Part shown: positions 8,666 to 35,662 of the stretch, piece by piece
How positions within the stretch are numbered: the first letter of the stretch is position 1
Layout: every line of letters starts with the position of its first letter
Virus record (IMG/VR): IMGVR_UViG_3300030060_001926
Coordinates: 1 to 40,173 of that record
Length of the DNA stretch: 40,173 nt
Reading direction: 5' to 3' (one strand)
Source: a virus
The notes under the pieces: generated by a model
What the model was told of the DNA's origin: nothing
The model's input: only the letters and a program-made list of their open reading frames with translations
The model's database searches: none
Translations under genes and position numbers: made by a program

Positions 8666-10567
8666 TTACGTTGGAAGCTGGTGTGGCCTAGCGGGCATAA
8701 CCATAATAGAAGTAGCGGTAATAGCAATACCGACTGGATCAATAATATCCCCTGAACCACTAGGGGCAGTTTGGGTAATACCTCCTGCTGTGTTTGATAG
8801 CCAGCACCAATCACCAACAGTAAGACTACTAAACCCATCAACAAGACCGCAGAATACAACAGTAAACGATTGGTTGCCGTCTGCTCCTGTCTTATCATCA
8901 ATTACACCTACGGCAAGTTTAGTTTGGTCAGTACGAACCGCCTTTGCCCAGACCCCGGTGTTGTCTAAATAAACTACATTAGTATTAACAAGTGTAGTGT
9001 TAGATCCAGTGACAGATAAACCAACCCTATTAGTTGCTGGAATAGATCCAGTTTCTTTTTGAATAACACCATTGGCATCAGCAGAAAGATATGTGGCATT
9101 TGCTAGAGTGGAATCTTTAAACTCTAAAGCTTCAACTTGTCCGTTTCCTGCATCTAAGGTAATCCTAGAAGTATATACACAAGGAGTTCCCGTAGCTGTG
9201 CCAACATCTACATCACGATACATTCGTATGTTTTGATCTAAGTATGTGCTTGCCTGTCCAGCTTGGTTTGGTATATCTAATTCACCAATTAAAAACCCGC
9301 TCCCTAAAGTTCCACCTTGAACTCCTGTATACGAACCCACACAACCTTTACTAGTGGCTCCAATTTCAATTCTTTTAGATGAAATTGTTGTTGCTGTATT
9401 TTCTACATCCTGTCCTTTTAATGCAGCAAAAGAATCATAAGCAGTCACACCATCATCATCAACATTTAAAAGAATATTGCTTCCTAAAACATCATCTGTC
9501 GCACCACTACGGATACACCTAAAAGCAGTGCCGCTAGGAGTAGTGCTTCTAACAGATAGCTTAGCTCCTGAAGCAGACAGGGTATCAACAGTATCATAAC
9601 CAATATATACTTTACCAATCTTACTGGCTAAGTTTGTTTCAGATTCTGTTACAAGATTAAACCTAGTTCCCATAGTAAATTCTAATATGTTGCTAGACTT
9701 TGATTTCACACCACCTACTAAAGTTCCAATGCTTGTGAAGTATTGAGTTAAGTCTCCTAAGAACCCTGCTTCAGGTTTAAAAATTAACCCCTTTGCGTCC
9801 GCAGTTTGTGGCGTAATAGTGTTCCAATCGCCGGGAGTGTTGTTTAATCCGGGTAGTTTTCTAATATAGTTAAGATTGTCAAGGGTAGTATCTGGTGCTA
9901 CGTTAGTCCAAAAGCTTGCACCAACACCAGTGGCAGAAGGAGCGTCAGCTGCTGTGCTTGTATGATCAATACCACAATACCAGATCAACAATGTTGAGGC
10001 TGCTGTGTTTGGATCGTCGTGTAATACAGTATCGCCAACAATATACGTTCTTCCTGCCGACCAGTTGGGCAACGTAAGCCCACCAAAGAAGCCATCAATC
10101 TGTTCTTTGGTATAGTATCCGCCTAGCTCTTGAGCAATATGAGTATAAATAGCTGTGTCTGCTACAGCCCTTTCGCTTTCCTCTTCCTCGACTAAATGGA
10201 TTGGTTGCAAGTTAACCGAATTAAGATCTTTGCTGCTAAGCTTGCTTCCTTCTTGGAAGGTAATGTAAAGAAGTTTACTGGTATCTCTAAGTATTCTAAC
10301 TTCATGCGTAGCTTTGCTTAGGTTAACAGGAACCTCAGCCCCATCAATTGTGGTCGTAGCGTTTGTAAGATCTACAGATTGATTGGTAGATTGATAAGTT
10401 CTTTCAAAAGAAGACTTAGTAATTTCAATCCAAGTAGTACTTAGAAGTGATCTGTAAAAGAAACGCAACTGTGAAATACCAAGTTCTGGGATAGTAGCAA
10501 TATGACCAGACCAGCTTACCGCAAAGACTTCATATGTATTTACAGTATAAGTTTTTTCAATAGACAT
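8666..10567 (-). CDS. Tail fibre with T7 gp17-like N-terminal anchor domain
   Basis: 633 residues; ATG at 10567 after TAAGGAGG. The first ~140 residues match the T7 gp17 N-terminal attachment domain: a beta-rich start, then YITFQEGSKLSSKDLN followed by PIHLVEEEESE, the position where T7 gp17 has its 'F-pGs-L-s-DLn-qq-h-iqE' segment. The central part has beta-rich, Gly/Thr-rich shaft-like sequence. The C-terminal ~130 residues (from GLSVTGSNTTLV to the end) form a compact domain with GLVDGFSSLTVGDWCWLS, a pattern shared by phage tail and decoration domains. It should attach to the tail tube and bind the host surface. Two fibres in this locus carry this anchor type. Confidence 0.85.
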   Translation of the reverse strand: MSIEKTYTVNTYEVFAVSWSGHIATIPELGISQLRFFYRSLLSTTWIEITKSSFERTYQSTNQSVDLTNATTTIDGAEVPVNLSKATHEVRILRDTSKLLYITFQEGSKLSSKDLNSVNLQPIHLVEEEESERAVADTAIYTHIAQELGGYYTKEQIDGFFGGLTLPNWSAGRTYIVGDTVLHDDPNTAASTLLIWYCGIDHTSTAADAPSATGVGASFWTNVAPDTTLDNLNYIRKLPGLNNTPGDWNTITPQTADAKGLIFKPEAGFLGDLTQYFTSIGTLVGGVKSKSSNILEFTMGTRFNLVTESETNLASKIGKVYIGYDTVDTLSASGAKLSVRSTTPSGTAFRCIRSGATDDVLGSNILLNVDDDGVTAYDSFAALKGQDVENTATTISSKRIEIGATSKGCVGSYTGVQGGTLGSGFLIGELDIPNQAGQASTYLDQNIRMYRDVDVGTATGTPCVYTSRITLDAGNGQVEALEFKDSTLANATYLSADANGVIQKETGSIPATNRVGLSVTGSNTTLVNTNVVYLDNTGVWAKAVRTDQTKLAVGVIDDKTGADGNQSFTVVFCGLVDGFSSLTVGDWCWLSNTAGGITQTAPSGSGDIIDPVGIAITATSIMVMPARPHQLPT

Positions 10568-10579
10568 TTATATTCCTCC

Positions 10580-13500
10580 TTATTCTGCAAACAAAGCTGA
10601 TTGCGGGGTAGCAACAGTATATAAGCTAACACGAATATTAGCAGGAATTCCTAGTCGCAAGAACTGTACTGCTGTCTCTAAACTAAACGCTGCGGCAGAT
10701 CCATCATCTACATCACGATTAAGCTTCATGTCTTGTAACTCTGGAGGCAGGTTAGATGCACTACTTGCTCCAGCATCTTCGGGGATTGGGGCGTTAGCAG
10801 TAGTGTCATCCCAATCAGTAGGATCATAATCTGCTAACCAATCAAGAGCAAGTTGCCTAAAGTTTACATCAGGGCTACCACCACTAGTAGTCATAGATTT
10901 ATGAACATCTAAATAACCAATGCGTTTCATTCGTGGAACTTTAAGAACTAGGTCAAATGCAGAGCCGGTTTTGTTTCTAATCTCTACATCTAGTTTGTGG
11001 TATGGATAGTTGTCCCATGCTTTAACAACATCAGCATTAAAGTCTGTTGGGTAAACATGGTAACCATCGCCACCAGCATTTGAGTTTGTGCCTCCACTAC
11101 CAATCCGAACACAATCTAATTCACCATCAGTGCAACCATCAGTATATTTTTCAATTTTAGCAACAACCTCATAACACCTAGAGTCTGTACAGTTTTGAGC
11201 ACCGCCAGATGTAGTATCTGAAGGTGTAGTTCTTGCTCCTGCATCCAAGCCAACAACAAAGACATATTCATCATATACATCCCCAATGTATGGTTCTAAA
11301 CTAGAGAAGACCGTGTTAGCATCAATCTTAATTGAATATGATCCACCCTTAGCAGCACTAACATCTGGATCATCATTATTAAAATCAATACCAGAAGCAG
11401 CATTAGACCATGTTCCACTTGCAGGTAAAATAGTATACTTTTCATTATCGTCAGACGAGTCACCAGTACCATGAAGAGATGTCTTACTAGGATCAAATGG
11501 ATTGTAATAACTTAGGTGTTCATACTTATTAACTTGGTTAGCTGAACCACTTCCACTAGTATCATTATCAAAACCTGTTACATGCCACCGCCAATAGTAC
11601 CAGTTCTTTCCAGCATCGCTTTCAAGATAGGTTCTTGTAGTAGTTGGAATGCCATAACTATAATTAGAACTGTCAGTAATAGCTCCCAATCCTTCCATAT
11701 TACCCTGCCAAACAATATGACTGGGTGCTCCAGTTGTTGCATCCCATAGGTGGGACAGGTAATATGTAACTACAGATGGGACATTAACAGCACTGCCGCT
11801 TGTTGCGTCATAAGCATATGAGCCATAAATAATTTCATCGCTTCCCATAAACTTAAGATAACTAGTTGTTCCACCAGTATCCTCTACGTTTGGATAGTCA
11901 GTAAGGGGGTGTTTTTCTGTATATCCTAGTGCAGTTCCCCAGTTGTTTTTGGTAATAATGCTTCTAAGAGATGTTAAATACCTGTCCGCCGAAGGCTTTC
12001 CAGTACTTGTATTCTGTGGACCCAGTGGGAATGCTTGAGATCTAGACCCATTGAATTTAAATGAGTCAATTTTTTCTGTATAAATTTTACACTTAGCTCC
12101 TATACCAACAGATGTTGACCAGTTTCTAAAATATGCAATGTCACTGTGATCAGATCTTGGTAGATCACTATCATCATCTAGAACACTACCAGCAACTCCA
12201 TGGTCAAGAGTATCAAAATGTTCAATATCAAAGAATGCTCTTGGATAATCAAACGAAGTAGCAAGGCCAGCAATCGCTCTACCTTCTCCCCTACCGATTT
12301 CCCACCTAAGGCTAGCTTTAACCTCGCCACCCGATGATCCAATTGCATTAATTTTACTAGTCACAAAGGTTTGAATTGCACTAGTTGTATTAGCGGAAGC
12401 TACTTGATCTGTAATTTGTTGTTCAGCTGCATAGTAACCAAGACCAAAGGATGTAATAGCATTAGGAACAAGATCCTTAGGTACGTTTAATACATTAGGA
12501 TCTGAGTTGCCCCATTTAGTATCAACAAACGCATCACCTTGAGGATAGTAATAGTCATCTAACTTTCCTTCAACGGAGGTGTTATATGATACCCAATCAG
12601 TAAAGTCAAATACATTAACAACGCTATTCACTAGAGAAGCAAAATCAGAGTTAACCCATTTGTCTCCACTATAATATAATACATCACCAGTAGAAGTTGA
12701 GGTAAAGTCTACGTTTGAAATATTATCTAGTTGCATATTGCCCGCAACAACCGAGGGATCTGTACCAACAAAGCTACCCTGACCATCCCAAGTTAATACA
12801 TCGTGTTGGTTAGTAGTAGATAAATCGAAGTTAACAGGCAAAGAGGTAGGAGGATCAAACGTAATGATTGGATCGTTAGTGTTATAATCTTGCCCATACT
12901 GGAAGCTCCATACGCTAACGCCTTGGAACATTCTTGCGTTAAGTTCTACGCTGTGAGCAAGGGAGGTATAGTTACCAGCAACTCCGGGTACAGACTGCTT
13001 AACAATAATTTTGTCTAGGGGTAAGGTATTTGTTACTCTACTTGTGGTTAGTTTTGTGCCATGTCCGTTAGTGTGACCAGTATTGATAATAGCTTTTTCA
13101 ATCTCAGCGGTGAGTTCGGACATTTGAGATAAGTTATGTAGCTGAATACGAACGTTGCTGCCATCTAACGACCCAGTTGCTCCTGCGTTGTCATCATCAA
13201 AGACATAAGTTTTTGAAACGTTTGAGCCATTTGTTTCTAATGCTTTAAGGGTAAAAGTAAACCCATCAAACTCAGAGGTTGTAAAGTCCTTACCCCCTCT
13301 AAAGTCATTATCAGTTGCACTGGATACGCTTACCATTTCTACACCATTAGTACCAACATCAACAACAACATCAGTAGCATTGGTAGCGTGTCCTGCATTA
13401 GTAGCAGTAAGGTTGATTTGTGTACTAGATGTTCCGTTAGATGCGGTAATACCAGTTACACCATTTTGTCCATTGCCGCTGGTAGCAGACGCAATCTTTG

Positions 13501-15778
13501 AATCAGCAACATTATTAATTGCTTTAACAAGAAGATCTCTAACGTCAGCATCAGTTAGTCCACCGCCTGTAAAGTTTGAAGATGTCAAGTCATTAATAGC
13601 AGCACTTCCACCACCCTGAGCAACCGCTGTATTACCATTTGATCCAGCTACAGCTTGAGTAAGGGTAATGGCTTGGTTTCCATTTGCCTGACCGGGAACA
13701 GCACTAACGGTAATCTTTCCATTGTGACCAGTAGAACCTTCAATAGCTGCTTTTAGTTGAGTTAATAAAAAGTTTTGTGTAGCGGTGGACGATGCAATAT
13801 TAACCGCAACAGCGATGCCACCAATTTGAGGAGCTAACGAACCAAGGGTTCCGCTACCATAATCATCACCTTGAGCCAATACTTTACCTGTGGGTGTGCT
13901 GCCACCTGTGTTAGCATTATCTACAATAACATATTTTCTAGTAGTACCATCTGTAGAAATTAAAGTTATTTCATCTAGCTCAGCACAAGTTACATTAGCA
14001 TCACCATCAGCAACAGTCAACGTAGTTGTAGCTGCTGCTCCACGCACACCAATAGCAATAGTATTAGTACCTGCTGCTGGCGAGGTGTCTTGATCTTCGT
14101 CTAATAGAATAGTAGTTGTACCCTGACCACCTGCACTAGATGGGAGCGTAAAGGTAAGACTCTCGTCTACACTTGCTGCTAGTACACCTGCTGTATCAAT
14201 AACATTGTTCGCACACGATGCAGAGACTTTAGTAGACTGCAAGCTAAAGGTAATTGCTGCTTTAACAGAGGCAGCATTTTGAACCTGCATATATTCGTTT
14301 GCTGCAAATTCTTTTTCTTGGATCAAGAACAGAAGTTGGTGAAGCGAAGCGTTAATATCAGTAGCACTTAGTTTTGCTCCTTCGGAGAAGGTAAGGAACA
14401 TTTTCTTATCATCACTGCATCGCTCAAATCTTAGCTGAGCGAATCCCGATACGCTCACATGGCTTAGAAGAGTTACAGTGGCTGCTGTCTCATTGATTGT
14501 GAAGTCTGTATTAAAGGTTAACTGGGTTTTCTCTCCACCAGATGTAACCAGATATACACAAAGCTGTAACGAATCAGGCACTTCACATAGGGTTGCAACG
14601 TTACCATATGAGTAAGCCACTCCAGTAGATGGATTATCATGGTTGATAATAACCGTTGCACCTAAGTTAGATGCATTGTAATAAATAGGGTCGTTTGTAT
14701 TGTAATCATAACACACTATTTCTTCTCCTGTTTCACAATCGGGATTAAATGGATTAGGGCAAGGGTCTACTTCCTCACACTCAAACCATATAGGAATATA
14801 AGAACTACCACATTGATAACAATTAGAACTTACATCAGCACACTGACCGGGGTCTGGGTTACATAGTTCATCGTAATCAACACAATCAAAATAAGGACCA
14901 GTTTCACTGCACTGACAACAGTTTGCACAACGTGTTTCATCAAAAACTACATTGCAGTACTCACAACTTTCACAATAAGAGGGAGGCATAGGATAACCAA
15001 ATGGACTGCAATCATCTGGCGGACATGTCTCGCAACACAAATCTTCAGGAACCCATTGGCCCGAGCCGGGAGGGCATTCTGTACAGCCCTCTTCACCGGG
15101 GACACAACAAACAGCAGGACAGGAATCATCTGCGCCTACAAAAGAACAAGTACCTGCACCGGGAGGAGGAGCTTGTCCTCCACCACAGGGACACGGAACA
15201 AAGTCTCCACAGTCTCCAGCACAAGGATCGCATAAAGCATCTGGATGACCAGCTTCAACAAATGTTCCATAAATACTTAATACATATTCTCCCGGTAAAT
15301 TTGACTCACAAGGATTTCCATCATTACACAAAAGACAAACTGGATATTCCTCATCAGTTATGCAAGGAACATCACAAGGCCAAAACGGTTGACATCCGTT
15401 GTTGTTTACCGATGTACAAACTTCTTCTGCGCCTCGCCGAATACAACATGTCTGGTCTTCTCCGCACGCACCACAATTAGTATCTTCCTCAGTACAACCA
15501 GTATTATAGTATTGAGCAAACTTACATAACAATTGCTGAAGGTTTTCGGTCCAACCACAGTTTTGAACAAGTTCACACAGCCCGCATTGTGCTCCTCCAA
15601 AAGAAGAACGATATCCGGGGTTGTCAGAATCTAATCCCTTGCTATTAAAAATTTTATTATTTGTTCCGTAGTAGCTGTTCCATTGGGATTTTGTTTCTTT
15701 TGCATTTTCAAAAGCATAGTCTACCCAACGAGAGTTGACAAACCATCTTTGCTTGGGCGATCTAATCCAGTTAGCCAT
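10580..15778 (-). CDS. Giant tail fibre-like protein with a 47-cysteine N-terminal region
   Basis: 1732 residues from an ATG with a TAAGGAG site. Visible parts, in order: a short N-terminal segment (1-60) with aromatic residues; a cysteine-rich region (65-356) with 47 Cys, including CC pairs and many CxxC spacings; a gp17-like anchor segment (about 375-500) with FLTFSEGAKLSATDIN and LLFLIQEKEF; Gly/Thr/Asn-rich repeat domains (about 600-957); and a long aromatic/Asp-rich C-terminal region (about 1000-1732). The heptad YNTNDPI occurs at about 359 and 965. It follows tail tube protein B, so it is very probably the main fibre or adhesin. The cysteine region matches no phage fibre domain I know. 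No frameshift is visible. Confidence 0.85.
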   Translation of the reverse strand: MANWIRSPKQRWFVNSRWVDYAFENAKETKSQWNSYYGTNNKIFNSKGLDSDNPGYRSSFGGAQCGLCELVQNCGWTENLQQLLCKFAQYYNTGCTEEDTNCGACGEDQTCCIRRGAEEVCTSVNNNGCQPFWPCDVPCITDEEYPVCLLCNDGNPCESNLPGEYVLSIYGTFVEAGHPDALCDPCAGDCGDFVPCPCGGGQAPPPGAGTCSFVGADDSCPAVCCVPGEEGCTECPPGSGQWVPEDLCCETCPPDDCSPFGYPMPPSYCESCEYCNVVFDETRCANCCQCSETGPYFDCVDYDELCNPDPGQCADVSSNCYQCGSSYIPIWFECEEVDPCPNPFNPDCETGEEIVCYDYNTNDPIYYNASNLGATVIINHDNPSTGVAYSYGNVATLCEVPDSLQLCVYLVTSGGEKTQLTFNTDFTINETAATVTLLSHVSVSGFAQLRFERCSDDKKMFLTFSEGAKLSATDINASLHQLLFLIQEKEFAANEYMQVQNAASVKAAITFSLQSTKVSASCANNVIDTAGVLAASVDESLTFTLPSSAGGQGTTTILLDEDQDTSPAAGTNTIAIGVRGAAATTTLTVADGDANVTCAELDEITLISTDGTTRKYVIVDNANTGGSTPTGKVLAQGDDYGSGTLGSLAPQIGGIAVAVNIASSTATQNFLLTQLKAAIEGSTGHNGKITVSAVPGQANGNQAITLTQAVAGSNGNTAVAQGGGSAAINDLTSSNFTGGGLTDADVRDLLVKAINNVADSKIASATSGNGQNGVTGITASNGTSSTQINLTATNAGHATNATDVVVDVGTNGVEMVSVSSATDNDFRGGKDFTTSEFDGFTFTLKALETNGSNVSKTYVFDDDNAGATGSLDGSNVRIQLHNLSQMSELTAEIEKAIINTGHTNGHGTKLTTSRVTNTLPLDKIIVKQSVPGVAGNYTSLAHSVELNARMFQGVSVWSFQYGQDYNTNDPIITFDPPTSLPVNFDLSTTNQHDVLTWDGQGSFVGTDPSVVAGNMQLDNISNVDFTSTSTGDVLYYSGDKWVNSDFASLVNSVVNVFDFTDWVSYNTSVEGKLDDYYYPQGDAFVDTKWGNSDPNVLNVPKDLVPNAITSFGLGYYAAEQQITDQVASANTTSAIQTFVTSKINAIGSSGGEVKASLRWEIGRGEGRAIAGLATSFDYPRAFFDIEHFDTLDHGVAGSVLDDDSDLPRSDHSDIAYFRNWSTSVGIGAKCKIYTEKIDSFKFNGSRSQAFPLGPQNTSTGKPSADRYLTSLRSIITKNNWGTALGYTEKHPLTDYPNVEDTGGTTSYLKFMGSDEIIYGSYAYDATSGSAVNVPSVVTYYLSHLWDATTGAPSHIVWQGNMEGLGAITDSSNYSYGIPTTTRTYLESDAGKNWYYWRWHVTGFDNDTSGSGSANQVNKYEHLSYYNPFDPSKTSLHGTGDSSDDNEKYTILPASGTWSNAASGIDFNNDDPDVSAAKGGSYSIKIDANTVFSSLEPYIGDVYDEYVFVVGLDAGARTTPSDTTSGGAQNCTDSRCYEVVAKIEKYTDGCTDGELDCVRIGSGGTNSNAGGDGYHVYPTDFNADVVKAWDNYPYHKLDVEIRNKTGSAFDLVLKVPRMKRIGYLDVHKSMTTSGGSPDVNFRQLALDWLADYDPTDWDDTTANAPIPEDAGASSASNLPPELQDMKLNRDVDDGSAAAFSLETAVQFLRLGIPANIRVSLYTVATPQSALFAE

Positions 15779-15790
15779 AGGTTTGTCTCC

Positions 15791-18700
15791 TTATTTTTGA
15801 ATGCTAGTGTTGCCACTTCTAAAGTTACCAATAACTTCTACATTGGTAATATTGCAGGGAGTAGGATAATCACTTTTAATATTAATTTTAGTGGAATCTG
15901 CATAGCCCAAGACTTTAGATAGCAGTTCACCCTCAGTTTCAATCCTCAAACTTCCTAAAAGATCCGTTGTGTCATTAAAAGAAAATGCCTCACTTCTTAC
16001 TGAACTAGCTGTTCTTGTGTACCTTTGTACTTCTACGTCATATTGGCCTGTGTTTCTGTGTCTTGTTGTTAGTCGTTTAAGATTAAGAACACCGGGGACA
16101 GCAACATTATCTTGGCCTCTAACATGTAGTGTAGAAAGCTCTAGATTCATGATATATGGCCTGCCTACCCACATGCGTCTTGCTGTAAACACACCAGCCC
16201 CAGTTCTTTCGGTTGCTAAATTACCTTGGAATGTAAGCTTTGTAATAAAATGCCCATCATATTGCTCTGTTGCTACAGCAACGGCAAAGTGTCTTGAGTA
16301 TCGTCTGTCCGTAGACCAATCGTCTGCAAGCACGGCCTCTTTAGCATTGGGGTCATAGTAAGGTAAAGTAACTGTAGTGTAGTTTGATTCAGCATCATAG
16401 GTAATTTCGCTTGTTTCTACTTTATGGAGCCTATCTAGTAGTGGAGTGGCGAGGGTGACAGGCTCAAATGAAGCGTAATACGCATAGATTTTAGGAGTCA
16501 CACCATTTGTTCTTTTCACCACTATATAAACACCATCTTCATATCCCTGCACTGCAAGCACGGAATCAGTAGAATCAAGAGTCCACTTATAAAAAGCATT
16601 TTGAACAAGCTGCTGTCCGTTTGTCTTAGTAGTATAGATATACATTTCATTTTTACTATCCCTATCTACCATAACAATGCTGTTGTAAGATGGGATTGCA
16701 GTAACTTCTTGAAAGTTTACAGGTAAGTATCCTCGACAGTGTTGCGAAAGCTCGTAAGCAGTAGAGTATTCATTACCAAATGCATCAGTTCCACTGTATA
16801 AAAACAATTTTTCTTCATCAAAGAAATAAATGTTGTTTCCCATTTTAACAGGATTGGCAGTAGATGCTGATGAGTAAAACGAAGTAGATCTTAGCTCTAC
16901 ACTAGTAGGAGAAACATTGCCTGCTTGTGTAGCAGAACCTCGAATCTCAAACTGCGTACCACTTCTTGTAGTAATAAACAAAAAGTTTTGGTATGCTGTT
17001 AAACTTTGTACCCTATTAAACTGGCCTGTGTTAACAGACAGGTCAATAGGATCTGCATCTGTAATGTTTTGAATATCATCAATAAAGTAATTAAAATAAT
17101 CGTTTACTCTAGATGAAAAGATTGTTGTATCTGTAGCAATCCAAAGCCTGCCTTTCCAAAAGTCCATGGCTTTAATTGTTTCTCCGCTTTTAATTCCAGA
17201 TGGTCCGGGGTTATTAATTGAAGATCCACTATCTTTTGGCTTAAGCGGAGCATAACTAATTCTCCACTTACCATCAGAAGAAGACTTTCTAATCATAACC
17301 GGCATTGTTCGGTGATCAATTACAGAGTCTTTATCTTCTGCTCGTACTCTTTGAAAGTAAGGCTGACCCCCTTCAGAGTTAGAGACAACCCGATAGAACC
17401 CAGCACTGAAGGTAAAGAAAGGATCTCTGGTATGGTAGATCTCTCCCCTACCAAAATCATTTGCATTAGGGTATTGATAAATAGAATCTGGGTTTCTAAT
17501 ATCACTAAAGGGGCTGGTTAAATATCCAAAATCAGGAGCATCAGCTGCCCCAAGAAAACCTACAATAGTAATAGCAGAATCTGTTGTAGTTACTCCAGCT
17601 GAAGTTTGTAATTCAATTGGTTTATTTGCAAAGGTTCCGTGAACATCCCAATTTAAATTAACTTTTGTGTTGTCAACAGTATCAACTGCTGCGGTAACTC
17701 TAAGAGAAGGATTAACAGCTTGCACTATTTGTTGAAATCTAGTAGCAATAGTTGAAGCGGTAGTTCCTGCACCATTAAGACCAACAATATATCGACCCTC
17801 AGCATCTTGCAAAGGAGTTGTATCGTGGTTAAGATCGGTTTTAAAAATAAATTTCCAATATTCTTGGGTGGGGTGCAACGAGTTTCTAATAACAATTACA
17901 TTATTAGTTGTTACTGCTTGACCATCGGTAAACGTAACGCTTCCAGATGCTTTTGCCGCAGATGTTGCGTCTGTATTGGGGATACCAGATTCATTACGAT
18001 GATATAGGTGTTTTAGTGCAGCACTTGCTTTCCAACCATTATGTGATCCTGTGTCATCAGCAGCTGGGGGCAATGGAATGTCTGAAAAGTTTTCAAGAGA
18101 GTGGCCTACCTCATATGCTTCTAGTGAAAAAGAGTTTACTCTAGATTCAATATCCGCAGATACGTTTTTGTATCCTCCACCATCTGGGGAGGCAACAGTC
18201 GAGATCCATGCTGAATATATCCCATCAGAATCTTTGCTAAGTTCGTAAGGTTTTAGTTCTCTGTCTTCTTCAGAAGCATCTGGTAATCTTACTTGTCCAT
18301 CTCCGCCATTAGCTGGATTACCACCATCGTCTACAAAAAACATATCAGCTGTTTTGTAGTTCATCTTATCACCAGCATGAATATATCCGGGGTGTGGTTC
18401 TTTAAAACCAACCACCTCGCCGTCTGAATTTCCCCAGTTATCTGCTGCGCCTAGTTCTTTTACTTTTCCAGAGTTGTCAGGAAGGAATGCAAGTTTTTTC
18501 TTTTTGTTGTAAAAGATAGCACCTGCACCAAAGCTTACGCTGCCCATGATATCGGCTAATACATCGCTTCCGTCTGTTTTAAGATTAGAATGGAGTAAAT
18601 ACTCTAACATTCCTCTATCAAATGAAAGACGATCAAACTCTTCTTCTACCCATTCTGTAGGTTCAATACGAAAAACTCTAACAACTAAGTTGGTAAATTC

Positions 18701-19027
18701 TACAGCACGATTAATAACAATACAATATCTATTTACACCATCAACATCAATAAAATGAAAGAATAAGTTGTCGTTGTTGTAGTAGTCTAGTGGGTTAGTA
18801 ATCCCAGATTCTTCAGGAGGAGTTCCGCCTAATACATTAGGAACATTTAAGTAATCTCCTTCAACCCCTGTTTTAATGTGCGTCATTGGTGGTCTTTTTT
18901 CTGCTGATCTCTCCACAGTTAAGACAACATTATCCGCCTCCTGTACCTCTTGAGGCAAACGCTTGGACGATTCTCTTCGAGAAACGCCCCCATTAAATGT
19001 AGGAATTTGAATCTTTGTGGTTGGCAT
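15791..19027 (-). CDS. Tail tubular protein B (T7 gp12-like nozzle protein)
   Basis: 1078 residues, longer than T7 gp12 (about 794). The N-terminus, with FNGGVSRRESSKRLPQEVQE and ADNVVLTVERSAEKRP, is the classic gp12 start ('f-gGVSqq---lr-p-q--e--N-----s--kRp'). The C-terminal half contains long beta-rich stretches around residues 600-900 (MDFWKGRLWIATDTTIFSSR, FLFITTRSGTQFEI), typical of the gp12 propeller. It forms the distal nozzle of the short tail and carries fibres. Extra length lies around 330-560, an inserted segment beginning with ASGSVTFTDGQAVTTNN. The start shares a base with the gp11-like stop (TAATG). Confidence 0.92.
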   Translation of the reverse strand: MPTTKIQIPTFNGGVSRRESSKRLPQEVQEADNVVLTVERSAEKRPPMTHIKTGVEGDYLNVPNVLGGTPPEESGITNPLDYYNNDNLFFHFIDVDGVNRYCIVINRAVEFTNLVVRVFRIEPTEWVEEEFDRLSFDRGMLEYLLHSNLKTDGSDVLADIMGSVSFGAGAIFYNKKKKLAFLPDNSGKVKELGAADNWGNSDGEVVGFKEPHPGYIHAGDKMNYKTADMFFVDDGGNPANGGDGQVRLPDASEEDRELKPYELSKDSDGIYSAWISTVASPDGGGYKNVSADIESRVNSFSLEAYEVGHSLENFSDIPLPPAADDTGSHNGWKASAALKHLYHRNESGIPNTDATSAAKASGSVTFTDGQAVTTNNVIVIRNSLHPTQEYWKFIFKTDLNHDTTPLQDAEGRYIVGLNGAGTTASTIATRFQQIVQAVNPSLRVTAAVDTVDNTKVNLNWDVHGTFANKPIELQTSAGVTTTDSAITIVGFLGAADAPDFGYLTSPFSDIRNPDSIYQYPNANDFGRGEIYHTRDPFFTFSAGFYRVVSNSEGGQPYFQRVRAEDKDSVIDHRTMPVMIRKSSSDGKWRISYAPLKPKDSGSSINNPGPSGIKSGETIKAMDFWKGRLWIATDTTIFSSRVNDYFNYFIDDIQNITDADPIDLSVNTGQFNRVQSLTAYQNFLFITTRSGTQFEIRGSATQAGNVSPTSVELRSTSFYSSASTANPVKMGNNIYFFDEEKLFLYSGTDAFGNEYSTAYELSQHCRGYLPVNFQEVTAIPSYNSIVMVDRDSKNEMYIYTTKTNGQQLVQNAFYKWTLDSTDSVLAVQGYEDGVYIVVKRTNGVTPKIYAYYASFEPVTLATPLLDRLHKVETSEITYDAESNYTTVTLPYYDPNAKEAVLADDWSTDRRYSRHFAVAVATEQYDGHFITKLTFQGNLATERTGAGVFTARRMWVGRPYIMNLELSTLHVRGQDNVAVPGVLNLKRLTTRHRNTGQYDVEVQRYTRTASSVRSEAFSFNDTTDLLGSLRIETEGELLSKVLGYADSTKINIKSDYPTPCNITNVEVIGNFRSGNTSIQK

Positions 19028-19674
19028 TACTTTCTATACCTCCTACTAGGCCCACGGAAATCAAAGTTTCGCGTGCTTGCTAATCGAGTACCAACATCAC
19101 CATTCAAAAAGCTTCTTCTCTTTTGATGGACATCAGCACCCTTACCCTTGGCAGAGTAAATTGCTTCTCTTTGTGCTAAGTATTGATCAACTCTTGGATC
19201 CCCTTGACTAATCATCTGATAGTCTCTGGCTGCACCGGACATAATTGCACGCTGCATTGGTGTCTCAATATCTGAAAACTCAAGGTTAACTACAAGCTTG
19301 ATTCTAACACCATCACTGCCGCCCAACCCTGTCCAGTCACTTGAGTTATCTGTAACATTAAACAAATAAGGAGGACTACCCTTGTAGCTTGCAAGAATAT
19401 ATTGTTCTTGATCGGTAGAATAAATATCTTCTGCTAGCTCAGCGTGTACCGTGCCTGATGGCAAATAGATATTACCGTTTGAGTCGGGTAAATATTTTTT
19501 ATAATAACAGTTATTTACAACCCCACGCATTACATAAGATACAATGGTTTCTTCAAGGATATGCTCAGCAACACTAGTATCCACACCAGAATCATTTTCC
19601 AAATGGTTAGCGATATGCTCTCCAGACATAAGTAACATATGGTTAATTGCATCTAGTTTGGAATACTGTCCCAT
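19027..19674 (-). CDS. Tail tubular protein A (T7 gp11-like adaptor)
   Basis: 215 residues, near the family norm (T7 gp11 is 196). The start, KLDAINHMLLMSGEHIANHL, is the gp11 signature ('l-AiN-mL-aiGe-pv'), followed by a helical region containing LEETIVSYVMRGV and a beta/helical end. In T7 this protein forms the dodecameric ring between portal and gp12 nozzle. The gene lies directly before tail tube B with TAATG coupling, as in T7. A basic C-terminus (RGPSRRYRK) is present. The start has a strong AAAAAGGAG site. Confidence 0.93.
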   Translation of the reverse strand: MGQYSKLDAINHMLLMSGEHIANHLENDSGVDTSVAEHILEETIVSYVMRGVVNNCYYKKYLPDSNGNIYLPSGTVHAELAEDIYSTDQEQYILASYKGSPPYLFNVTDNSSDWTGLGGSDGVRIKLVVNLEFSDIETPMQRAIMSGAARDYQMISQGDPRVDQYLAQREAIYSAKGKGADVHQKRRSFLNGDVGTRLASTRNFDFRGPSRRYRK

Positions 19675-20279: not shown

Positions 20280-21656
20280 TTAGGCATCGTCGCCGAAGCC
20301 ACAGATAGCTGCACATAGTTCTGGACGTAGAACACCAGCACCACGCATGACCGAAGCCACGGTGAACTGAGTGTTACGACGTACATCTTGTACAGTATCG
20401 ACCTTCATACCTTGAAGGCTGAGGGATGCGACAGCATCTTGTTGCCAGATAAGAGCCTTAACTGGGAACATTGCATCGAACGAGTTGGTATCGCTAATCT
20501 TGCGAAGCTGCATGAAGTCAAAGTCATACTTAGCATCACCAAGATCAGTAACCTTAGTAAGTGCAGCCTGACCACCAGCGAACTTAGTGGCGCCAGTAGG
20601 ATCAAGAATAACGTTATCAAGGTCATCACGAATACCAGCAATATCCGAAGAAACTACTGAGTGGTTTGTTCCACCAAGCTCTACAGTTGCAGTTGGAATG
20701 TGGTTGGTCTTAAGGATGGTAGCACCCATGTAGGTAAGTGAATCTGTAAGAGCATTCATACCTGTAGTGTAAGGAGCACCAAGACCACCAGCTGCTGCAA
20801 CGCCACCAAACATAGGCTGTAGGTTGCCTACATTAGCTGGAGCATTACCAATAGTAGAGTTCTCTCTAGCAATACCAAGAGCACGAATGTCTTGGAAAGC
20901 TTGAGGAGTAACAGCAACATAAACACCTTCAGTAGGACCATCAATTTCTTGTAGTCTTACCATATATCTTTCGATATACTCTAGTAGTTTAAGGGCTGCG
21001 TTTGCACGCTGGTTGCTGTAGGCAGCACTGCCAAAGCCAAGGTAGTTGAAAGTAGCGGACGCTTCCATATCAAATGAACTTGCTGAAAGGTCAGTAGTTA
21101 CATCATCATGAGCACCAGCAAAGTTACCACCCTTGCTTACAGCAGGTGAACGAGCATCCATGAAAGCACCCTGTGCAATCATAGCTGCAATCTGCTTATC
21201 TCTTGCATTAGCGAGAGACAGACCGGCTTGACGAGCAAGCTCGGATCGGTATTCCCACTGAGTTAGCATGAGAGAAACATCATCTAGCTCAAAGAACGAA
21301 GCCATAGGCCGCGAATCAAGCGAGATGTCGAACCAACGGGGCTCAGAAATAGTGCTGGACCCGACGAGTTCTTCACCAGCTTTCCACTGAGCCTTATGAC
21401 CAACAGTACCAGTGATTGGGAATCGCATGGTAGTGCCAGAAGTAATAGCTCTAGTAGTAACTAGTGGTTCAAAAATGTTGTACTGGTCGTAAGCATTGAG
21501 TACTTCGCCAGACCAAATAGGAAGCCAGTAATTCTCATTACTAGCCGCAGCATTGCCATATTGGCCTACTGCTGCACCAGAGTTTGCACCGGGGGCTGTG
21601 CCGCCAGTAATCCAACCAGTTCCGTTAGTATCTAATGGATAAGCTTCATTAGCCAT
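20280..21656 (-). CDS. Major capsid protein (T7 gp10-like, HK97 fold)
   Basis: 458 residues, longer than T7 gp10A (about 345). Features of T7-type capsid proteins: the central LVTTRAITSGTTMRFPITGT segment, then KAQWKAGEEL, SRPMASFFELDDVSLMLTQW and YRSELARQAGLSLANARDKQ, the E-loop and spine-helix region that in gp10 reads similarly. A strong AAGGAG site precedes the ATG, and the codon use is tidier than in neighbouring genes, consistent with high expression. It lies between scaffold and a strong terminator, as in T7. Extra residues at the N-terminus (Gly/Ala/Asn-rich) and around 280-350 may form surface decorations. Confidence 0.95.
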   Translation of the reverse strand: MANEAYPLDTNGTGWITGGTAPGANSGAAVGQYGNAAASNENYWLPIWSGEVLNAYDQYNIFEPLVTTRAITSGTTMRFPITGTVGHKAQWKAGEELVGSSTISEPRWFDISLDSRPMASFFELDDVSLMLTQWEYRSELARQAGLSLANARDKQIAAMIAQGAFMDARSPAVSKGGNFAGAHDDVTTDLSASSFDMEASATFNYLGFGSAAYSNQRANAALKLLEYIERYMVRLQEIDGPTEGVYVAVTPQAFQDIRALGIARENSTIGNAPANVGNLQPMFGGVAAAGGLGAPYTTGMNALTDSLTYMGATILKTNHIPTATVELGGTNHSVVSSDIAGIRDDLDNVILDPTGATKFAGGQAALTKVTDLGDAKYDFDFMQLRKISDTNSFDAMFPVKALIWQQDAVASLSLQGMKVDTVQDVRRNTQFTVASVMRGAGVLRPELCAAICGFGDDA

Positions 21657-21739
21657 TGAATAATCTCCTTAAGTTAGTTAATTAAAAATAAAAACTTTAG
21701 GTGTGATTATCCTAGTCCCCTCTCAAGGGATTGTTAGGG
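21657..21739 (-). promoter_or_regulatory. AT-rich leader before the capsid gene; possible phage promoter region
   Basis: At 83 bases this is among the two longest spans between protein genes in the window (the other, 20197-20279, holds the terminator). On the minus strand it contains a short CCCTTGAGAGGG hairpin near the scaffold stop, then a run rich in A/T (GTTTTTATTTTTAATTAACT), then TTAAGGAG before the ATG. T7 has its strongest late promoter (phi10) at this place. I cannot identify a consensus because I found no second copy of a shared motif elsewhere in the window. Confidence 0.3.
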
Positions 21740-22675
21740 TCATCGACCTTTATAGCCATGTTGATGAGAAAGAACAATTCTTTGCTCAACTGCTTGCCGG
21801 AAAGCGGGGTCGGTACGATACCGAGGATCTGCAATAGCCGCTTTCATTTCTAATTCCGAAACAAAAGCTTGAGCTTCTGGTCCGGGCTTAGCTGGCTTGC
21901 CTGTCATGGCATTAGGTGTAGAAACAGCAGGCTCAGGTTGAGTTTCCTGAGTGGCGGTACTCGACTGAAAGCGTGCCTGAAGACCCATAAGAATAGATTG
22001 CGAGGCTGGACCCTGCAATCCTTGGTTCATAGCACTAATCTCTTCAGCCGGTAAGTTTTCACCGGCCCACTTTAGAATCCTTTTTAGATTATCCGCACCG
22101 CCGACAACCGAAGCGGACGAGTCAAATGCTTGCTTCTGCATTGCTTGTCTGCCACGAACCATTTGTTCAACAACAATAGGATCTGCGTTAAGTCTTTTAG
22201 CAACTTCCTTCTTTGTAGCTTCAGATAGATCACCACTTTGATCAATCTCCTTGCCCCACCGAGTCCAGTCTTCGGCTCCTACAGAACCATACTCTGGCTC
22301 TGCTGGCTTGGTTATCTGAAGTTCCTCAGGAACGTCACTAACGTCCTCAACAACAGGCTCTGCTGCTGGTTGTCTTTCAGCCTGCGGGTCATAATTTGGA
22401 TTACTAACCGCTGTTTCATTATAATTTTTCTTTAACTCAGCAATCTCTTGCCGAGACTTTGTATATTCGCCTTGCGCCTGCTTCAAAGAATTAAACCAAT
22501 CTTCTGCTGATTTAAAATTAGCTGGGATTGATTCGCCCTGTTCTTTTACATACCTTACAAACGCCGCGCGTTCGTTTGTAACTACAGGATCTTCAGTTGG
22601 TTCAGCAGGCATAACAATATCATTACCTACCTGAGTCCCCTCTGTGGATTGTTCAGGTGTTTCGTTTACTTCCAT
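21740..22675 (-). CDS. Capsid assembly scaffold protein (T7 gp9-like)
   Basis: 311 residues, matching T7 gp9 (307). It is acidic, Glu/Pro/Gln-rich and low in aromatic residues, with helical segments such as KQAQGEYTKSRQEIAELKKN and a C-terminal helix region (ELEMKAAIADPRYRTDPAFR) ending in a basic tail, LSHQHGYKGR. This is the usual layout of podovirus scaffolds, whose basic end binds the coat protein. It lies directly before the capsid gene, as expected. An AAAGGAG site lies upstream, within the preceding small gene, whose last 23 bases overlap this one. Confidence 0.9.
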   Translation of the reverse strand: MEVNETPEQSTEGTQVGNDIVMPAEPTEDPVVTNERAAFVRYVKEQGESIPANFKSAEDWFNSLKQAQGEYTKSRQEIAELKKNYNETAVSNPNYDPQAERQPAAEPVVEDVSDVPEELQITKPAEPEYGSVGAEDWTRWGKEIDQSGDLSEATKKEVAKRLNADPIVVEQMVRGRQAMQKQAFDSSASVVGGADNLKRILKWAGENLPAEEISAMNQGLQGPASQSILMGLQARFQSSTATQETQPEPAVSTPNAMTGKPAKPGPEAQAFVSELEMKAAIADPRYRTDPAFRQAVEQRIVLSHQHGYKGR

Positions 22676-22787
22676 TTAATTTTTTCTCCTTTGCGATAGT
22701 TCGCTTCTTCTTGCGAGTCGCCTTAGAACTATCAGGCTTTAAGCCCGTGTGTTTTTTTGCATATTCTTTAGGGTTGTGTGACCTCAT
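22653..22787 (-). CDS. 44-residue basic protein of the small-gene cassette
   Basis: Short ORF beginning MRSHNPKEYAKKHTGLKPDS, then a Lys/Arg tract (KATRKKKRTIAKEKK) and NGSKRNT. The start overlaps the previous stop (ATGA at 22784-22787). The scaffold ribosome site and first codons lie inside its 3' end, so it may couple scaffold translation. The product is highly basic, with no hydrophobic core, and probably binds nucleic acid or another virion component. No family is recognised. Confidence 0.65.
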   Translation of the reverse strand: MRSHNPKEYAKKHTGLKPDSSKATRKKKRTIAKEKKLNGSKRNT

Positions 22788-22945
22788 CGGCCTCGTTTTC
22801 CCATCATACCGCGTACACCACGCTTCTTCATTTCATCAGCTCTTTTACGAAGTTTAGCACCACTACCCTTAGCAGCAGGCTTTGCACCAGCTTTCTTAGG
22901 TGGTCTTCCTCTTTTGCTTCCGTATGTTCCTTTTCCGTATGGCAT
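22784..22945 (-). CDS. Small basic protein, MPYGKGTYG type
   Basis: 53 residues starting at the ATG at 22945, which shares a base with the preceding stop (TAATG). It begins MPYGKGTYGSKRGRPPKK, continues Ala/Lys/Gly-rich, and ends GVRGMMGKRGR. The RGRPPKK stretch resembles an AT-hook-like core (RGRP), which binds the DNA minor groove. Short proteins with this start are frequent in marine phages, but their role is unknown to me. The AT-hook idea is an inference from four residues. Confidence 0.75.
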   Translation of the reverse strand: MPYGKGTYGSKRGRPPKKAGAKPAAKGSGAKLRKRADEMKKRGVRGMMGKRGR

Positions 22946-23160
22946 TATTTTTTTCCTTTCTTTTTCCAAGAAATTCTAGCCGGACCCTTTTTAAGTTTCT
23001 TTCTAGAATTGCACTGCGCCTTGGTTGGTCGGCAAGCGGGGTAAGGTCGCTTGCTGCCGCCCTTAGCAGACTTTCTACCACATGGCTTACCAGTCTTACA
23101 GTCGACCCAACCCTTACCCTTGTTGCGACCAAACCATTTCTTTAGACCTTCTTTAGCCAT
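22945..23160 (-). CDS. Small basic Cys-containing phage protein, MAKEGLKKWF type
   Basis: 71 residues. The pattern AKEGLKKWFGRNKGKGWVDC, then KTGKPCGRKSAK and KRPYPACRPTKAQC, with a KKGPARISWKKKGKK end, is a recurring phage and bacterial small-protein family (DUF-type, resembling DUF5872). It contains four cysteines in a basic frame, which would suit a structural metal site. TAATG junctions lie at both ends. Biochemical function is not known to me. Confidence 0.85.
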   Translation of the reverse strand: MAKEGLKKWFGRNKGKGWVDCKTGKPCGRKSAKGGSKRPYPACRPTKAQCNSRKKLKKGPARISWKKKGKK

Positions 23161-23315
23161 TACTTTTTCCTCTTAGATTTATTGCCCCAGTTTTTAGCAC
23201 CAACCTTGCGGCACTTAACTAAAGCTCCAGAAGCATATGCACTAGGCCATTTGGTGTAACGGCTCTTAACTTTATTGTAACAAGCATCACGCTTTGCTTT
23301 TTTCTTTTTAGCCAT
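23160..23315 (-). CDS. 51-residue basic protein, 'CYNKVKSRY...PSAYASGALVKCRKVGA' family
   Basis: The ORF starts at the ATG at 23315, sharing a base with the preceding stop, and ends at 23160 in another TAATG. The product runs MAKKKKAKRDACYNKVKSRY, then TKWPSAYASGALVKCRKVGA and KNWGNKSKRKK. The 'WPSAYASGALVKCRKVGA' core is strongly conserved in small proteins of many T4-like and T7-like marine phages. The two cysteines and central Trp suggest a compact fold. Function unknown. Confidence 0.85.
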   Translation of the reverse strand: MAKKKKAKRDACYNKVKSRYTKWPSAYASGALVKCRKVGAKNWGNKSKRKK

Positions 23316-23581
23316 TAGCACTTCCACCTTCTGCGTGCTTTACGCAATCTGCTATTTGGGTCTTTAGCAGCTTTGGGAAACTTTTTCATTTGACCGGCTG
23401 ATCTAGCACAATAACTTTTCTTTCTAGATCCTCCTCCGGGTTGCGGAGCTTTGAGTTTAGAACCAGTCTTACGGTTAATCATACGTCTGCCCTTGGCGGT
23501 AAGGCCTCCTGCCTTACTTTTGCAACCATTGCCAATAGTACAGCCTTTCATGGCTCCCTTTTTCTTAGATTTAGTTGGCAT
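23315..23581 (-). CDS. 88-residue basic Cys protein, 'GGLTAKGRR...SRKKSYCARSAGQM' family
   Basis: Features in order: MPTKSKKKGAMKGCTIGNGC, AGGLTAKGRRMINRKTGSKL, KAPQPGGGSRKKSYCARSAG, then KDPNSRLRKARRRWKC. The 'LTAKGR' and 'SRKKSYCARS-GQM' elements are shared by a family of small phage proteins (DUF-type, perhaps DUF6321; not checked). It has four Cys, two of them near the ends, and a very basic pI. A GAGGGGG site precedes the ATG. No enzymatic motif is visible. DNA or portal-complex binding is possible. Confidence 0.85.
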   Translation of the reverse strand: MPTKSKKKGAMKGCTIGNGCKSKAGGLTAKGRRMINRKTGSKLKAPQPGGGSRKKSYCARSAGQMKKFPKAAKDPNSRLRKARRRWKC

Positions 23582-23584
23582 GGA

Positions 23585-23710
23585 TCACCCCCTCTTCAAT
23601 GGTTTTTTCTTGGCTGCTTTGGGCCTGTTCATTTTTAAAAATTTATCTGCGTCTTTATTAGTAAGCTTCATAGATTTACCACCGCAAGACGAAATATATT
23701 TCTTTTTCAT
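23585..23710 (-). CDS. 41-residue basic protein
   Basis: The start is the ATG at 23710, one base after the preceding stop; the longer open frame ahead of it is the shadow of the neighbouring gene. The sequence begins MKKKYISSCGGKSMKLTNKD and continues DADKFLKMNRPKAAKKKPLK. It is Lys-rich with a single Cys. It belongs to the chain of small basic genes between portal and scaffold. No family is recognised. Confidence 0.65.
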   Translation of the reverse strand: MKKKYISSCGGKSMKLTNKDADKFLKMNRPKAAKKKPLKRG

Positions 23711-29430: not shown

Positions 29431-29847
29431 TTAAGCTCCAGTCGATCCAAAACCGCCATCTCCCCGCTCTGTCTCTGTAAGCTGTTCTACAACCTCGATT
29501 TTAGGACAGAAATACGGAACAATTACTAATTGTGCGACTCTATCTTGAGCCACAATAGTTTCACTGTGGGCATTATGATTCTTAATAAGACAAATAATCT
29601 CGCCTCTGTAGTCAGAATCAATGATTCCTACAGTATTTGCTAAGCCCAGCCCTTTCTTGCCGATGCTAGAACGAGGACAAAGCAATCCAAAATGGCCTTC
29701 TGGAATCTCAATATGAACCTTAGTTCTAATCTTTGCTGTGCTTTTTCTTGGGATCTCAACTGTTTCTGTACAGTACAGATCCATTCCAGCAGAGCGTTCT
29801 GTTCCACGGGTAGGAACACAACCATCCTCTTTAATTACAATCTTCAT
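29431..29847 (-). CDS. dut: Deoxyuridine 5'-triphosphate nucleotidohydrolase (dUTPase)
   Basis: 138 residues, the normal trimeric dUTPase size. All five motifs are present: SAGMDLY (1), CPRSSIGKKGL (2), GIIDSDYRGEI (3, with catalytic Asp and Tyr), DRVAQLVIVP (4) and RGDGGFGSTG (5, the flexible C-terminal arm). The enzyme converts dUTP to dUMP and pyrophosphate, keeping uracil out of phage DNA and supplying dUMP. A GGAG site precedes the ATG. No residue of the active site is missing. Confidence 0.96.
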   Translation of the reverse strand: MKIVIKEDGCVPTRGTERSAGMDLYCTETVEIPRKSTAKIRTKVHIEIPEGHFGLLCPRSSIGKKGLGLANTVGIIDSDYRGEIICLIKNHNAHSETIVAQDRVAQLVIVPYFCPKIEVVEQLTETERGDGGFGSTGA

Positions 29848-29872
29848 AATTCTCCAATCGTTTGTCTATAAG

Positions 29873-30622
29873 CTAGGTTTTTGGCGACCAAAGTTTTATT
29901 TCCTTGGTGGCCTTATCGTAGTCTCCGATACGCAGAATACGCACACACCTAGCTTGAGCTAGGGCAAACTCTTCTTTAGTCATATCAGGCACTCTGTTCT
30001 CGGGTCTACGGTCCCAGTCTTCATTTAAATATATGTCCATAATAACAGAATCCCAATCATCAGGATCGTTTTCTGCCAATACTTTCTTAGCTTTAGCAGG
30101 CCCAACCTTCCAAAGCCCAAAGATATTATCTGTGGTATCTCCTGTCATCCATTGTTCATAGAAGAACCTATCGGCCTCTTCTTCTGATATATAAACAGGC
30201 CCATCTTCTTTATCAGGATTCCAGTGCCAGCCCGGAACTGACCGAAGATCTTTGTCTACAGTAATACCAATTGCTTTCCCAGATGATATCATCATACCAA
30301 GAAGATCATCTGCTTCTAGTTTAGCAACACACTTTGCATCTGTAGCTTCATCATAAATACACTCAATACTATATTCCATAGAATCAGGACGCTTGACTGA
30401 GTTACGGTGCTCTTTGTAAAGAGGCCAAAACTCTTTCCTGTAGTTGTCTTCTCTAGGGCAAGACATTGCTACAATAACTTTATCAATATTATCAGGAGTC
30501 CAAGCATTGAGGTCTGTAGCTATACGATACGGCAGTTCATCTACACCTTCTCCATCAGCCCAATAAGCTGCTCGATAGGCAATGATGTCCCCATCAATAA
30601 TTGCTGTGGTTGGTCTATCCAT
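29873..30622 (-). CDS. 5'-3' exonuclease (T7 gp6-like, FEN/PIN superfamily)
   Basis: 249 residues. Metal-binding acids appear in family order: TAIIDGDIIAYRAAY (Asp10, Asp12), KLEADDLLGMM (Glu103, Asp105, Asp106), TVDKDLRSVPG (Asp123, Asp125) and GDTTDNIFGL (Asp162, Asp165). These lead into the helix-three-turn-helix KVGPAKAKKVL that grips DNA. In T7 this nuclease removes RNA primers and degrades host DNA for recycling. The start shares a base with the kinase stop (TAATG). It is shorter than T7 gp6 (300), but the core is complete. Confidence 0.93.
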   Translation of the reverse strand: MDRPTTAIIDGDIIAYRAAYWADGEGVDELPYRIATDLNAWTPDNIDKVIVAMSCPREDNYRKEFWPLYKEHRNSVKRPDSMEYSIECIYDEATDAKCVAKLEADDLLGMMISSGKAIGITVDKDLRSVPGWHWNPDKEDGPVYISEEEADRFFYEQWMTGDTTDNIFGLWKVGPAKAKKVLAENDPDDWDSVIMDIYLNEDWDRRPENRVPDMTKEEFALAQARCVRILRIGDYDKATKEIKLWSPKT

Positions 30623-31398
30623 TAATCTGCACCTTCTTTAAATTCTTCATCGGTAGGATCAGACAATCGTTCAATTTCATTTTCAAGCAAATCAACAATG
30701 TTGTCTAGCTTATCAAGCTCATCCTTTAGCATATATAGTTTTAAGAAATGATCGTTTGGCTGAAGACCGTTGCGATATAATTCAGTGGTTGGATCAGTAG
30801 CTGGATCACCAGACATTATCCAAGTAAAGAACCTATCTCGAATATAATCTTGAAGTTCGGGAACAGGCTCACGATTGACTAGATACTCATGAAAAATATC
30901 TACATAGTCTTTGTGTCCCATCTCTACCATAGTTGCTAGTGTTTCTGATTCATGGAATCTCCAAGAGTCAAAAGGTTCATCAAGATCTCTGTCACCTGTA
31001 GTAATAAAGATCTGATAGGCCTCCACTTCTCTACCAAAAGCAATCTCATTCATGTATCGAACATCGTCTTGAATAACAATGTGTTCAAACCTTTCAACCT
31101 GATCCTGCTTATTGCGAAGCTCAATTGTTTTTAGTTCTTCAACTTCAGCTCTTACTTTGTTAACCCAATAATCTGCATCTTCTTTTCTCCTGCCTTCGCC
31201 CCATTTCTGACAATACTTTCGATAGCCATCTGGATCTTTTTCTTTAGTAAATCCTAGATCGGCAGCTTCTTTCTTTAACGCTTTAGCAAATGGTAGGATG
31301 ACTGGTATGTAATTATTTTCATACGCAACGTCATACAAAATACTTGCAATGGTAGACTTACCGGCTCTACCTGCACCACATAGTTGAATAAATTTCAT
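30622..31398 (-). CDS. P-loop nucleotide kinase (probable deoxynucleoside monophosphate kinase)
   Basis: 258 residues. Walker A is GAGRAGKST at residues 8-16, after a beta strand (FIQLC). Further kinase-like elements are IPVILPFAKALKKEAADLGF and the Walker B-like HIVIQDDVRYMNE. These resemble phage dNMP kinases of the T4 gene 1 / P-loop NMP kinase group. A long helical, acidic C-terminus (DELDKLDNIVDLLENEIERL) follows. Placed between DNA polymerase and exonuclease, it fits dNMP to dNDP phosphorylation. The substrate cannot be read from the sequence, so other P-loop kinases are possible. An AAGGAG site precedes the ATG. Confidence 0.75.
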   Translation of the reverse strand: MKFIQLCGAGRAGKSTIASILYDVAYENNYIPVILPFAKALKKEAADLGFTKEKDPDGYRKYCQKWGEGRRKEDADYWVNKVRAEVEELKTIELRNKQDQVERFEHIVIQDDVRYMNEIAFGREVEAYQIFITTGDRDLDEPFDSWRFHESETLATMVEMGHKDYVDIFHEYLVNREPVPELQDYIRDRFFTWIMSGDPATDPTTELYRNGLQPNDHFLKLYMLKDELDKLDNIVDLLENEIERLSDPTDEEFKEGAD

Positions 31399-35560: not shown

Positions 35561-35585
35561 AATAAATCTCCTTAAAAATTAATAA

Positions 35586-35659: not shown

Positions 35660-35662
35660 AAA

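Follow-up and report, generated by a model that had tools for sequence, protein, structure and literature searches.

The tail fiber gene of a T7-like phage encodes, between a short conserved head and a T7 gp17-type virion-attachment domain, a cysteine-rich region with 47 cysteines in 292 residues (16.1%; residues 65 to 356 of the 1,732-residue protein). The gene is located in a stretch of 40,173 nucleotides, referred to below as the window, which represents positions 1 to 40,173 of the IMG/VR virus record IMGVR_UViG_3300030060_001926. With somewhat better than even confidence, we interpret the cysteine-rich segment as a virion-proximal structural domain of a trimeric T7 gp17-like fiber, composed of tandem, divergent cysteine modules of ~30 residues that would be held together mainly by intrachain disulfides. 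The gp17-like fiber is an already known kind of protein; the new part, as far as sequence comparison can tell, appears to be the cysteine-rich base domain, which has no detected relatives and for which we infer a function. The features referred to in the text are as follows (window coordinates).

10580..15778, minus strand: tail fiber gene, 1,732 residues, gp17-like with an N-terminal extension; an open reading frame directly downstream of the nozzle gene, with a PF03906 match
15587..15778, minus strand: conserved Trp-rich head, residues 1 to 64 (alignment A3)
14711..15586, minus strand: cysteine-rich region, residues 65 to 356 (cysteine count and alignment)
15209..15289, minus strand: module M1, residues 164 to 190, with the optional Cys pair 166/176
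15008..15085, minus strand: module M2, residues 232 to 257, with the optional Cys pairs 233/245 and 236/239
14840..14929, minus strand: module M3, residues 284 to 313, with the Cys pair 288/299
14735..14827, minus strand: module M4, residues 318 to 348, recognized by HMM cross-match
14249..14659, minus strand: T7 gp17-type virion-attachment domain, residues ~374 to 510 (Pfam ID PF03906; Foldseek)
11111..11191, minus strand: C-terminal set of four cysteines, residues 1530 to 1556 (Cys positions in four relatives)
15791..19027, minus strand: nozzle (tail tubular protein B) gene, the neighbor and expected docking partner of the fiber, with 3 Cys (PF25675, E value of 2e-69; PHROG 457)
19027..19674, minus strand: adaptor (tail tubular protein A) gene, with 1 Cys (PHROG 446, E value of 7e-23)
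8666..10567, minus strand: second fiber-cassette protein, 633 residues, with a weak PF03906 match and an ordinary cysteine content (6 Cys)

A recount agrees with the initial annotation, which had reported 47 cysteines (~16%) in this region, along with CC pairs, CxxC spacings, and many Pro, Gly, and Asp residues. There are 4 CC and 11 CxxC motifs, 32 Pro and 28 Gly (60 together), and 26 aromatic residues; the region is also strongly acidic, with 50 Glu and Asp residues (28 and 22, respectively) versus only 4 Lys and Arg, and contains a single His. The remaining 1,440 residues of the fiber contain 10 cysteines. At the background frequency found in the 17 other proteins of the window (89 Cys in 7,517 residues, or 1.18%), the binomial probability of at least 47 cysteines in 292 residues is 4e-39, and no 292-residue stretch of these proteins has more than 10. 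The fiber reading frame is unbroken in the window and in the relatives with complete 5' ends. Such intact frames in many contigs, together with the synonymous TGT/TGC exchange described below, rule out artifact, frameshift, and noncoding readings of the region. An open reading frame on the opposite strand (15001-15480, plus strand) is considered spurious. Near the other end of the fiber, Cys1530, Cys1535, Cys1549, and Cys1556 form a set whose spacing is repeated in L001, L002, L003, and L006.

Matching IMG/VR contigs include L001/L012, L002/L016, L003/L020, L006/L013, L014, L015, L017, L018, L019, L021, L022, and L023 and the divergent L037 (identifiers joined by a slash denote a single contig). 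The full fibers of these relatives are 1,199 to 1,749 residues long, and the nine full-length copies of the cysteine-rich region, one from the window and eight from IMG/VR contigs, contain 45 to 68 cysteines each. Across these nine copies, 33 Cys columns are invariant; they include 30 of the 47 window cysteines in residues 65 to 356 (hypergeometric P value of 2e-16). The mean conservation of Cys is 0.85, versus 0.53 or less for any other residue type with more than one site. Both TGT and TGC are used at 31 of the 33 invariant columns, and dN/dS values for five pairs range from ~0.12 to 0.29, with dS close to saturation for most pairs. Given the exchange of synonymous codons and the low dN/dS, the cysteines are under selection at the protein level, and these alignments demonstrate purifying selection on the cysteine pattern.

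The head that precedes the cysteine-rich region carries the motif MADWIRSPxxRWFxNxxWVxYAFExAKxxxxQWNSYYG and is 53 to 70% identical among the relatives, with 20 invariant columns in alignment A3. It is never found without the cysteine-rich region, as all IMG/VR matches to the head come from the same contigs. On the C-terminal side, PF03906 is matched by residues 416 to 504 of the window fiber with an E value of 9e-4 and a score of 19.4 to 20.8 bits, below the Pfam cut-off of 25.2; L019 (27.9 bits) and L037 (28.5 bits) score above that cut-off. A Foldseek search detected the attachment-domain fold of Klebsiella phage Kp9 (7y1c_g; E value of 6.7e-6) and T7 gp17 (7boz_a; E value of 7.1e-5), both with a probability of 1.00; the query was an AlphaFold2 model of residues 1 to 509 that is poor overall, and the matched part, residues ~375 to 510, was assigned by sequence position. 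The attachment domain itself holds three conserved cysteines, Cys398, Cys407, and Cys454. Judging from these profile and model matches, the order of the fiber is a 64-residue head, the cysteine-rich region, the attachment domain, and the distal fiber. The alignments show that the cysteine-rich region and the gp17-type attachment domain are encoded in a single frame and that the region is conserved in an uncultured T7-like lineage with contigs of up to 67 to 70 kb.

The fiber resembles T7 gp17 (PF03906; structures 7boz and 7ey9, as well as 7y1c of Kp9) in the position of its gene after the nozzle gene, in the fold of residues ~374 to 510, and in the profile match, which passes the cut-off in L019 and L037. 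However, T7 gp17 begins with the attachment domain, whereas in the window fiber ~370 residues with 47 cysteines lie ahead of it, and a similar extension is present in all relatives. Because the cysteine-rich region lies between the head and the gp17-type attachment domain, it would be placed at the base of the fiber by the tail hub and not at the receptor-binding tip; by analogy with T7, it should be found near the hub. Thus, the attribution of the cysteine-rich region to a tail fiber stands as far as the count is concerned, but not in the sense of a receptor-binding part.

This position also bears on the suggestion that the domain acts as an adhesin by binding a host or surface ligand directly. 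In eukaryotes, disulfide-rich modules often serve as binding domains, and an N-terminal extension could stick out from the tail. Nevertheless, the region precedes the attachment domain in the chain and shows conservation among phages with fibers of different lengths (1,199 to 1,749 residues), in contrast to the distal and variable receptor-binding parts, and it matches no known binding family. We regard this reading as very improbable, and the term “adhesin” used in the initial annotation is not supported.

The setting of the fiber gene is that of a T7-like phage. The window encodes T7-type morphogenesis proteins, namely TerL (PF22530), nozzle (PF25675), adaptor (PHROG 446), scaffold (PF05396), and portal (PF12236), as well as a major head protein (PHROG 267), DNA polymerase A, a T7-type primase-helicase, and a B12-type ribonucleotide reductase. 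Its gene order, with the fiber right after the T7-type nozzle gene, is repeated in L001, L003, L006, and G001, and two larger contigs, G001 and G006 (67 and 70 kb), show the same genome plan as the window lineage. The giant internal virion proteins of these two contigs (3,946 and 4,106 residues) are nearly Cys free, and eight other virion proteins of G001 have only 10 cysteines in 8,725 residues, so the concentration of cysteines in one fiber domain stands in sharp contrast to the rest of the virion.

Several other features of these genomes are worth listing. Giant open reading frames of the internal virion type, ~3,900 to 4,700 residues long, are found in G001 (32189-44029, with 1 Cys in 3,946 residues), G006 (43936-56256), and the source record of the window, G000 (about 50582-64741). 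Two members of the T7-type RNA polymerase family are encoded in G001, a near full-length one at 21194-23626 (815-residue frame) and a short, divergent one at 29527-31317 (600-residue frame); the same pattern of two RNA polymerase frames is seen in G002. A fiber-cassette protein of 821 residues in L056 (10478-12943; 30478-32943 in G006) contains 27 cysteines, mostly in its C-terminal third, and has no Pfam match. The window also carries three tRNA genes, Leu-TAA, Lys-TTT, and Arg-TCT, at 35585-35862 (minus strand).

Searches for known families left the cysteine-rich region without a match, in support of the initial view that it is unlike known phage fibers. Among Pfam profiles, at E values of up to 1, PF03906 was the sole match in five members of alignment A1 (it was found in all five), with no zinc-binding or eukaryotic Cys-rich family. 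No match to the cysteine-rich region was found among NCBIfam profiles, in PHROGs at E values of up to 1 (0 of 10 members), or in PDB sequences by profile and single-sequence searches with the cysteine-rich part. Thus, the profile search that had been suggested as a check revealed no known phage domain in this region. A tblastn comparison with 50,697 annotated phage records gave no match to the window region and, for the longer version from L037, only weak matches to the attachment domain. Searched with the alignment, 84,980 species genomes of bacteria and archaea contained no relative and therefore yielded no clue to the host. We also found no paper on cysteine-rich podovirus or Autographiviridae fibers. 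In structure prediction, likewise proposed as a check, AlphaFold2 models of residues 1 to 509 (9 sequences) and 160 to 365 (11 sequences) are of low confidence, with mean pLDDT values of 47.6 and 58.8, respectively, and Foldseek with the 160-365 model found nothing below an E value of 4 in the PDB and BFVD. The region is similar in style to eukaryotic secreted disulfide-rich modules, with short tandem modules, CC and CxxC motifs, Pro and Gly residues, and aromatics, but has no match to them in Pfam, NCBIfam, or PDB sequences; the supposed resemblance to eukaryotic-type domains does not extend to any similarity detectable by profile search.

Internally, at least four degenerate repeats of a ~30-residue module, with the pattern C-C-x-C...W-x-P-C...C, can be recognized in the region. 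When an HMM was built for each module and its own segment was masked, the cross-module scores of all four HMMs on the real sequences exceeded those on all 30 shuffles in which the cysteines were kept in place. Modules M1 to M4 are thus shown by these profile comparisons to resemble each other beyond their cysteines. The low-confidence AlphaFold2 model has paired short strands at the module sites.

Within residues 160 to 356 of the eight closer copies, each variable Cys column has either a partner with the same phyletic pattern or a nearby compensating cysteine. Cys166 and Cys176 are both missing in the window alone; 233 and 245 are both present only in L019, L022, and L037; 236 and 239 are both present only in L013, L014, L016, L018, L020, and L021; and the loss of both 288 and 299 is seen twice, in L016 and in L037, two copies that do not form a sister pair in the tree. 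In the L019/L022 clade, Cys252 is replaced by a new cysteine a few residues further on. A further pair, 85/186, in which Cys85 lies outside residues 160 to 356, is lost only in L012. Apart from 85/186, the covarying pairs are 3 to 12 residues apart in the chain, and pairs 166/176, 233/245, and 288/299 are similarly placed within their modules (M1, M2, and M3, respectively). Counted from residue 1 through the attachment domain, the total number of cysteines (50, 48, 52, 52, 54, 56, 52, 54, and 73) is even in eight of the nine copies; the odd total is that of L037, whose region is too divergent for full alignment. Residues 110 to 160 align poorly, and the cysteines there shift and give no reliable pairing. 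Loss of two ligands with retention of the other two would be unexpected for a four-ligand metal site, so these paired changes, which were spotted by inspection, are few, and partly reflect shared ancestry (85/186 was matched after the fact), provide, together with the mostly even totals, moderate evidence, at the level of sequence, for intrachain disulfides over four-ligand metal sites.

Metal binding, through Zn or Fe-S in CxxC knuckles that would be loaded in the reducing cytoplasm and give a rigid fiber base without oxidation, has several points in its favor. It removes the problem of forming disulfides in the cytoplasm, several of the 11 CxxC motifs of the window are conserved (102/105, 232/235, 269/272/275, and 287/290), and there is a putative Cys-ligated metal site in the baseplate of phage JBD30 (PMC11445458). 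However, if cysteines change in twos while the rest of the module's cysteines stay, sites with only two ligands would remain; neither 50 nor 54, two of the cysteine totals, is divisible by four; and Pfam revealed no zinc-family match. With its single His, 26 aromatics, and 60 Pro and Gly residues, the region is also unlike metallothionein. We therefore consider metal binding unlikely; of the disulfide-rich or metal-binding character initially ascribed to the region, the disulfide part gains support from the paired gain and loss of cysteines and the metal part is disfavored.

In the favored reading, the fiber would dock at the junction of the adaptor and the nozzle, following the example of T7, where these two proteins form six docking sites for gp17 trimers and receptor binding by the fibers triggers a change in the nozzle (PMC6702177). 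Up to six trimers, with up to 18 copies of the cysteine-rich domain, would then place several hundred cysteines around the tail hub. As the nozzle has 3 cysteines and the adaptor has 1, the bonds would probably form within the fiber chain or trimer. The fiber protein would be made in reduced form in the cytoplasm and oxidized late in infection or during or after lysis. The oxidized hub may stiffen and protease-proof the base of the fiber and may help pass receptor binding on to the nozzle.

One point against the disulfide reading is that the fiber is made in a bacterial cytoplasm, which is reducing; searches of seven related phage records for thioredoxin and glutaredoxin found neither. Because of the latter result, oxidation, if it occurs, would probably be carried out by the environment or the host. 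A stronger version, in which the tandem disulfide modules are a new family that arose in T7-like phages and fold oxidatively only after exit from the cell, so that extracellular maturation completes and locks the fiber hub, seems possible but not probable. If it were true, a short-tailed phage would have a redox-driven maturation step after lysis.

Disulfides could alternatively act as a redox switch that locks the fiber or tail when oxidized, with reduction near the host surface allowing fiber movement or DNA ejection. The location at the fiber-nozzle junction is consistent with this idea, as fiber movement in T7 is coupled to nozzle opening (PMC6702177), and a similar proposal has been made for the tail of phage Milano, the contraction of which in vitro needs dithiothreitol (DTT) (PMC10811340). 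However, the hub neighbors offer few cysteines to staple to, and pairs that are 3 to 12 residues apart in the chain (all except 85/186) are the pattern of domain stability and not of an inter-subunit latch. A switch of this kind is therefore quite improbable.

Disulfides as such are not foreign to phage virions, and the idea that phage virions avoid them is too strong. In T7, bonds are formed by adaptor residues C133-C171 and nozzle residues C504-C554 (PMC6702177); phage 7-7-1 has a disulfide network in the capsid (PMC12796354); JBD30 has capsid disulfides (PMC11445458); and in Milano, the structural proteins contain 2.1% Cys, and Cys38 in the N terminus of the short tail fiber is disulfide bound to the baseplate (PMC10811340). 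Milano and 7-7-1, both Agrobacterium phages, are comparable in principle only, in that Cys-enriched virion proteins are cross-linked by disulfides: they have contractile tails, structural proteins with ~2% Cys, and numerous staples between subunits, whereas in the window phage a single fiber domain reaches 16% Cys, the covarying pairs lie in the same chain, and the hub proteins are nearly Cys free. The JBD30 virion, likewise, has intrachain disulfides as well as a putative Cys-metal site, but these are isolated bonds or sites of capsid and baseplate proteins and do not make up a Cys-packed domain.

To our knowledge, disulfides at such a density have not been described in any phage virion domain. 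A lineage that nearly bans Cys from its other virion proteins would carry ~50 cysteines per chain at what is probably the junction of fiber and tail hub. If these form disulfides, the question arises of how a virion built in a reducing cytoplasm becomes heavily oxidized, and the modules would constitute a natural disulfide-rich scaffold family that is absent from existing databases. An otherwise unannotatable Cys-rich protein of viral metagenomes also gains a likely role and position.

The source record G000 is 82,250 bases long; the window is one of its contigs, and 10 N at 40174-40183 join it to a second contig (40184-82250; L009 to L011). Because the second contig carries its own TerL and nozzle genes, whose products are 49% and 34% identical, respectively, to those of the window, the record probably mixes two related T7-like phages. 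The fiber of the second contig (L010 14742-18635, minus strand; 1,297 residues) is without a Cys-rich head, matches a right-handed beta-helix, and contains 25 scattered cysteines. Positions 22957-23597 of the window and 73618-74398 of the record are 75 to 78% identical in DNA, far closer than the TerL or nozzle proteins of the two contigs.
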